This document shows, piece after piece, positions 2,691 through 3,033 of a stretch of DNA of 9,227 nucleotides. The notes below the pieces were generated by a model. It had not been told where the DNA came from and made no database searches. It saw only the letters and a program-made list of their open reading frames with translations. This DNA comes from Candidatus Cloacimonadota bacterium (lineage in GTDB: Bacteria; Cloacimonadota; Cloacimonadia; JGIOTU-2; B8-G9), in contig QMNM01000040.1 of assembly GCA_003647765.1 (NCBI GenBank), positions 1 to 9,227 of the forward strand, in the 5' to 3' direction. Every line of letters begins with the position of its first letter. The first letter of the stretch is position 1. A program made the position numbers and the translations under genes.

Positions 2691-2851
2691 GATTTTCAAA
2701 CTATAGCATTCCATATAATATTTTGCTTTTATATTTTTGCTACAAATATACACAAATATTTGCGAATTTTTATCCTGATATATTTGGAAAAATATAAGTG
2801 AGTTTACTCTAAAAACCATTAAAATGGTTAAAATGGATTTATTGAGTCCTC

Positions 2852-2878
2852 TTACCCACAACTGAAGTTGTGGGCTAA
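2852..2878 (+). repeat. REP-like palindrome 1
   Basis: The 20-base core CCCACAACTGAAGTTGTGGG forms a 9-bp perfect stem (2855-2863 with 2866-2874). TTA lies on its left and CTAA on its right. Its partner at 2898-2924 carries the same flanks and arms in reverse orientation. Two inner pairs (A-T, C-G) are replaced there by G-C and T-A, preserving the stem. Confidence 0.8.
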
Positions 2879-2897
2879 CTCACTATCTCTTATATGA

Positions 2898-2924
2898 TTA
2901 GCCCACAGTTTTAACTGTGGGTAA
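2898..2924 (-). repeat. REP-like palindrome 2 (inverted copy)
   Basis: The core CCCACAGTTTTAACTGTGGG forms a 9-bp perfect stem (2902-2910 with 2913-2921). Reverse-complemented, it has the same TTA and CTAA flanks as palindrome 1, so the two form a head-to-head pair 19 bases apart. Neither is followed by a T-run directly after the stem, so terminator function is not favoured. Confidence 0.8.
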
Positions 2925-2999
2925 AATGTAAAAAAAAACCTAATTTTAACCCCTTCAGTGGTTTTTAGAGCGGGCTCATAAATCAAATGCCACAATATC

Positions 3000-3033
3000 T
3001 TTTTGTGTTTTTTCGTGTAATTTTGTGGCTTGC
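3000..3033 (+). repeat. TTCGTG-family dispersed repeat, copy C
   Basis: TTTGTG, TTCGTG and TTTGTG begin at 3002, 3012 and 3022, exactly ten bases apart, ending in GTGGCT. An inverted half-copy end, GCCACAA at 2989-2995, mirrors TTGTGGC at 3023-3029, so the copy lies inside a short inverted repeat. It starts 21 bases beyond the composite palindromic element. Confidence 0.65.

Follow-up and report, generated by a model that had tools for sequence, protein, structure and literature searches.

A probable REP-cored MITE from a Cloacimonadota genome and the association of its two-hairpin module with TnpA_Y1 genes

Introduction

Miniature inverted-repeat elements (MITEs) often contain internal inverted repeats, and the combination of terminal inverted repeats with 4-bp target duplications is the mark of a DDE-type transposase. 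IS200/IS605 and REP processing, in contrast, leaves no target duplication. The functions proposed for REPs concern transcript 3' ends and supercoiling. Among Y1 transposases, the signature Y...Q..HH defines subclass 1.2 of TnpA_Y1, for which Table 1 of the main survey of these genes gives REP as 'no' (Quentin et al., 2018, PMC6006769). The same survey puts TIRYT proteins mainly in subclass 2.1, and the text of a review of MITEs names neither RAYT nor IS200 (PMC10969869).

The locus compared here with these systems lies in a stretch of 9,227 nucleotides (the window), in which positions 2799-2978 form a 180-base, gene-less intergenic element with palindromes in the order outer, inner, inner, outer. 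The element is best explained as a REP-cored MITE; the kind is known, and the core is the less familiar part.

Anatomy of the element

The element as a whole (2799-2978, no strand assigned), a MITE with a REP-doublet core and without coding capacity, is flanked by rplU on the minus strand and by a lolC/E permease gene on the plus strand. At its left, TAAG (2795-2798, no strand assigned) is one half of a presumed 4-bp target-site duplication, the site being fixed by the 22 of 39 copies that have exact duplications. The left terminal inverted repeat, TGAGTTTACTCTAAAAACC (2799-2817, plus strand), is common to copies in the source genome and in relatives. It is followed on the same strand by the outer palindrome AACCATTAAAATGGTT (2814-2829), with a 7-bp stem and the loop AA, and by the inner palindrome CCCACAACTGAAGTTGTGGG (2855-2874), with a 9-bp stem, the loop GA and then CTAA. 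The inverted inner palindrome CCCACAGTTTTAACTGTGGG (2902-2921, minus strand) has a 9-bp stem and the minus-strand loop AA, and the inverted outer palindrome AACCCCTTCAGTGGTT (2948-2963, minus strand) forms six of seven pairs; the mismatched pair is peculiar to the window copy, and relatives have a perfect palindrome (AACCCCTTCAGGGGTT). The right terminal inverted repeat, GGTTTTTAGAGCGGGCTCA (2960-2978, minus strand), was placed by copy alignment, and TAAA (2979-2982, no strand assigned) is the right half of the presumed duplication. Because four bases, AACC, are common to both, the hairpin core and the terminal repeats are not cleanly separated in the window family. A first-pass annotation of the window had described four palindromes in mirror order, which are confirmed at these positions. 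The spacers of 18, 19 and 19 bases that it gave are correct only with arms longer than the palindromes, and the distances between the palindromes themselves are 25, 27 and 26 bases.

Three or more non-overlapping perfect palindromes arose in only 1 of 2000 dinucleotide shuffles of 2799-2978, and the element folds more strongly than its shuffles both as single-stranded DNA (z = -6.6) and as RNA (z = -9.6). It contains one weak terminator-like match, of 5 pairs. A tRNA gene scan of the window found none, and an Rfam search with the element gave no family at gathering score (Acido-Lenti-1, 21.6 vs 37). Adjoining the element, at about 3000-3030 of the window, is TTTTTGTGTTTTTTCGTGTAATTTTGTGG, which recurs elsewhere in the source genome and once in genome G013 (L003, L007, L202, L261, L291).

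Copies, ends and target duplications

A search of the source genome (1.97 Mb in 360 contigs, 89% complete) with the element gave 63 matches, including those to a second, inside-out family; by our own count from these matches, about 29 distinct places hold copies or fragments of the window family. Related copies are present in 9 of 59 relatives (source genome counted) from six genera, the best covering the whole element at 86% identity. The aligned copies start with TGAGTYYRCTMTAAAAACC and finish with its inverse, precisely at 2799 and 2978 (TGAG...CTCA), and these terminal inverted repeats are common to copies in the source genome and in relatives. All 22 copies examined in these genomes are intergenic, none overlapping an ORF of at least 90 codons, and the genes around the examined copies are arranged in tandem (11), convergently (4) or divergently (3).

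The end points proposed in the first-pass annotation, 2799 and 2978, are therefore the exact ends of a repeated element. That neither flanking gene accounts for the symmetry, as it had argued, agrees with the position of copies at unrelated intergenic places, and the judgement that no plausible protein is encoded holds for an element without coding capacity whose 22 copies overlap no ORF. Its suggestion of a composite mobile repeat of the BIME or MITE type is borne out by multiple sharp-ended copies that keep the four-part layout. A single copy in the genome with nothing related in sister strains, or conservation only at rplU/lolC, had been named as evidence to the contrary; instead, the family occupies about 29 places and has copies in relatives.

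An exact 4-bp duplication borders 11 of 21 window-family copies, as against 0.6 expected from mismatched pairs, and 0 of 20,000 permutations were as high. Lengths of 2, 3 and at least 6 bp are at chance level in these copies, and a length of 5 was seen once. The duplication is found in 22 of 39 REP-core copies (1.34 expected) in a wider set taken from a stricter end-pair scan, an earlier loose scan having mixed in many chance pairs. The window copy, with TAAG/TAAA, has one mismatch, and an exact duplication is kept by only three copies in the source genome; the window copy is an old insertion with an imperfect duplication. The same ends also enclose other cores. Genomes G008 and G013 contain a second family in which these ends enclose an unrelated core, CGCGAAATAC, and 9 of 10 copies have the duplication (0.11 expected), and G003 has another REP-core family with window-family ends.

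A longer form is present at L003, L006 and L008 (G000), in which about 60-80 bp of common flank adjoin the element left and right and the ends are near CTTACGCA; an empty-site search with the joined flanks of this longer form found no uninterrupted copy. An identical 60-bp insertion (CACCCTGTTAGATA...TATCTAACTGGG) is present at the same point, the foot of the inner palindrome, beside different genes at L013/L202 and L020/L201 (G000 C24, C240). A mini-element, CCCRGTNAAAT...ATTTNACNGGG, lies in outer or inner palindrome loops in several genomes (L093, L097, L206, L214, L221, L223, L248, L313), as if hairpin loops were its target.

The two-hairpin module and its vehicles

The core unit comprises the outer palindrome AACCRTTnnAAYGGTT, about 25 nt, and then the inner palindrome CCCAYnnnTnnAnnnRTGGG. 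The element at 2799-2978 holds this unit twice, inverted, and is thus equivalent to two REPs in inverted orientation, each with two hairpins. Covariation was scored in 127 distinct doublets drawn from fetched loci, only at those stem positions that the search pattern did not constrain; these positions are complementary in 126, 123, 126 and 126 doublets, with two or three base-pair types. On the outer-to-inner strand the two-base loop is N-A in 126 and 125 of the 127 doublets, so that the loops are strand-specific and the two hairpins have the same orientation. Behind the inner hairpin CTTC is most frequent, and in front of it GAAG; this GAAG/CTTC foot was counted in 67 of the scanned doublets, and CTAA occurs in part. 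The doublet pattern occurs in 9 of the 59 relatives and in 15 of 24 genomes chosen for a tnpA gene, in none of which, relatives or tnpA-chosen, did a reversed control pattern find a match.

The two-hairpin unit is also carried by no fewer than three further MITE types, which differ in their ends and in the length of their duplication. In the second family of the source genome the units are inside out (inner, outer, outer, inner) between AGTGCAGTGTAAAGT ends (L190, L192-L200), and its sites look like TA duplications, judged from four pairs only; very short derivatives of this family, of 77-83 bp, are also seen (L260, L262). The inside-out form of G008, G013 and G016 has ends near CTTWCCATTATACA and duplications of about 8-10 bp, read from six flanks. 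G060 contains a three-palindrome form with GTAACCGATCAC ends, all four copies of which show an 8-bp duplication. Since one set of ends encloses several cores, and one kind of core is found between several sets of ends, core and ends are two separable modules. Compared with the window MITE family, the hairpin module probably has the greater age and the wider distribution. Most likely, MITEs would have acquired its units by insertion or recombination, and the units would then have multiplied along with them; entry may have been by recombination or by the insertion activity of a Y1 enzyme. Hairpins in place could act on neighbouring transcripts as REPs do.

Association with Y1 transposase genes

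In several phyla the two-hairpin unit borders genes whose Y1 transposase products have the Y...Q..HH signature; their assignment to subclass 1.2 rests here on this motif and on length rather than on the profile of PMC6006769. Two-base-loop palindromes lie within 100 bp upstream of 56 of 80 such tnpA genes, compared with 22 of 420 control windows (Fisher p 8e-37), and within 130 bp downstream of 50 of 74, compared with 21 of 402 controls (Fisher p 2e-32); the 80 loci, from many phyla, were collected by their similarity to an alignment whose seeds were Cloacimonadota proteins, and the rates are therefore those of a sample and no census. Upstream, the loop closest to the gene is mostly T-N, and downstream it is mostly N-A, a mirror orientation. 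The outer palindrome is always the one adjoining tnpA, and downstream its loop often supplies the stop codon. Of 97 doublets, fourteen are no more than about 300 bp away from a Y...Q..HH tnpA gene, where about 0.1 would be expected by chance (estimated from genome sizes). In G026, tnpA has a complete four-part element at either side, and similar four-part arrangements, some with one side altered, are present in G013, G008, G002 and G001. The palindromes beside tnpA belong to the doublet class without being an exact copy of 2799-2978, and the four-part elements that flank the gene have no TGAG ends.

The only Y1 transposase gene of the source genome (assembly 89% complete) lies where a contig ends and has the motif YIKNQ..HH. 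Its protein scores 23 bits against the NCBIfam RAYT model, which has a cut-off of 80, and the palindromes downstream of the gene are another set than those of the element. This protein (L104, L031; G000 C246) is like that of G013 C255 over most of its length and like that of G013 C11 at its C-terminus, and the downstream palindromes (ACGCCC, CCCAGTCG) match those of G013 C11; it is possibly a recombinant. A gene pair read from its ORFs as MazF-like adjoins the source tnpA.

Which enzyme moves the element

The element has the features of a MITE: terminal inverted repeats, a duplication fixed at 4 bp, no coding capacity, many copies and a mostly intergenic distribution. Most likely, it is moved at its TGAGTYYRCTMTAAAAACC ends by a DDE-type transposase supplied in trans, with the hairpin module as cargo. 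Such an enzyme would recognise both inverted ends of a short non-autonomous transposon, and insertion into A/T-rich intergenic DNA would duplicate 4 bp of target. We infer this mover indirectly, because the transposase itself was not found. In G003, at least 14 contigs stop inside a longer element with window-family ends and the start of an ORF; an autonomous parent IS whose interior was lost in assembly would look like this. Genes with these ends were absent from the results of a DNA search with the G003 IS end, of a PF01609 search (which did give genes) and of a Pfam scan of the G026 IS C-terminus, all in the fragmented MAG assemblies of the source and relative genomes. Probable autonomous IS ends with a TGAG inverted repeat are seen at many contig ends (L211 and L213 in G003; L226, L246 and L247 in G026), their interiors missing.

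Alternatively, the element could be REPIN-like, a pair of inverted double-hairpin REPs that a TnpA_Y1 (HuH) enzyme mobilises in trans in single-stranded form. The similarly designed four-part elements that directly adjoin tnpA at either side in G026, G013 and G008, with the outer palindrome gene-side, would fit this, as would the strand-specific loops, the covariation and the lack of doublets in most relatives. However, the terminal inverted repeats lie outside the palindromes and come with 4-bp target duplications, the elements flanking tnpA lack TGAG ends, and the same ends are mobile without any REP core. In addition, the only Y1 gene of the source genome has downstream palindromes of another set, and this explanation is unlikely. 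Enzymes of the IS200/RAYT type make no duplication whereas the copies have 4-bp ones, which argues against such movement, and a RAYT-driven REPIN was rejected as the mover on this ground. The first-pass annotation had suggested mobilisation by a RAYT-like transposase. What stands of this is that relatives have a Y1 gene between two four-part elements of the same kind; as the mover, a RAYT conflicts with the 4-bp duplications and terminal inverted repeats, and with a Y1 protein of the Y...Q..HH type that reaches 23 of the 80 bits required. An IS200/IS605 derivative, which would end at cleavage sites by subterminal hairpins with neither terminal inverted repeats nor duplication, does not fit either.

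About as improbable as the REPIN-like reading is an ordinary MITE whose palindromes are incidental and have no special relation to tnpA. Internal inverted repeats are common in MITEs, but here MITEs with different ends repeat the doublet motifs, their order and their loop orientation, and so do the flanks of tnpA genes from several phyla, at rates much higher than in controls. A regulatory hairpin array or bidirectional terminator of rplU or lolC, suggested by the site between divergent genes and by the strong RNA fold, has very little to recommend it and was rejected on the terminator scan, with its single weak match, and on copies at unrelated tandem, convergent and divergent intergenic places, no Rfam family being reached at gathering score.

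Any part that a Y1 enzyme plays for the element is inferred. Subclass-1.2 HuH enzymes might, rather speculatively, put hairpin doublets into resident MITEs while these are single-stranded, to be spread afterwards by various DDE transposases. If so, one REP family would travel in several unrelated vehicles across phyla.

Comparison with known systems

The main survey of these genes had listed the association of tnpA with such hairpins as absent. In a literature search, with most subscription journals outside its scope, neither REPs belonging to subclass 1.2 nor REP-cored MITEs turned up. TnpA_Y1 subclass 1.2, described without REP and without IS properties, gains a candidate DNA substrate conserved in sequence, order and strand, so that what these widespread enzymes act on becomes a directly testable question. 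Moreover, as one palindromic module is common to MITEs of several transposase types, palindromic repeats can spread without an enzyme of their own.

Like other bacterial MITEs, the element is short, non-coding, intergenic and multi-copy, with terminal inverted repeats and target duplications; it differs in its core of REP-like doublets, which are common to MITEs with different ends, and its parent IS was not found (PMC10969869). With the REPINs and BIMEs of RAYT systems it shares an inverted palindromic pair, strand-specific hairpins, intergenic dispersal and related units flanking a Y1 transposase gene (PMC3116915, PMC2817692, PMC8266576). However, each half of the element has two hairpins rather than one, the hairpin lacks a GT[AG]G foot on its 5' side (GAAG/CTTC being commonest), the partner protein is Y...Q..HH and not the class-2 Y...NP, and the vehicle leaves 4-bp duplications. 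No cognate class-2 RAYT gene flanked by the same REP was found in the source genome (89% complete), the only Y1 gene being of the Y...Q..HH type. The tnpA products resemble TnpA_Y1 subclass 1.2 in length (about 147 aa), in the Y...Q..HH motif and in their occurrence in Bacteroidetes and related phyla (PMC6006769). While that subclass was described with no REP and generally no terminal IS200 structures, oriented palindromes flank most of the genes sampled here. TIRtrons also consist of Y1 (TIRYT) genes bracketed by paired palindromic repeats, some of them in dispersed families, but their TIR consensus, GGGGWSAS, is unlike the motifs described here (De Nocera et al., 2013, PMC3733652). Of the systems known, the double-palindromic TIRs around some TIRYT genes come closest as a precedent (PMC3733652).
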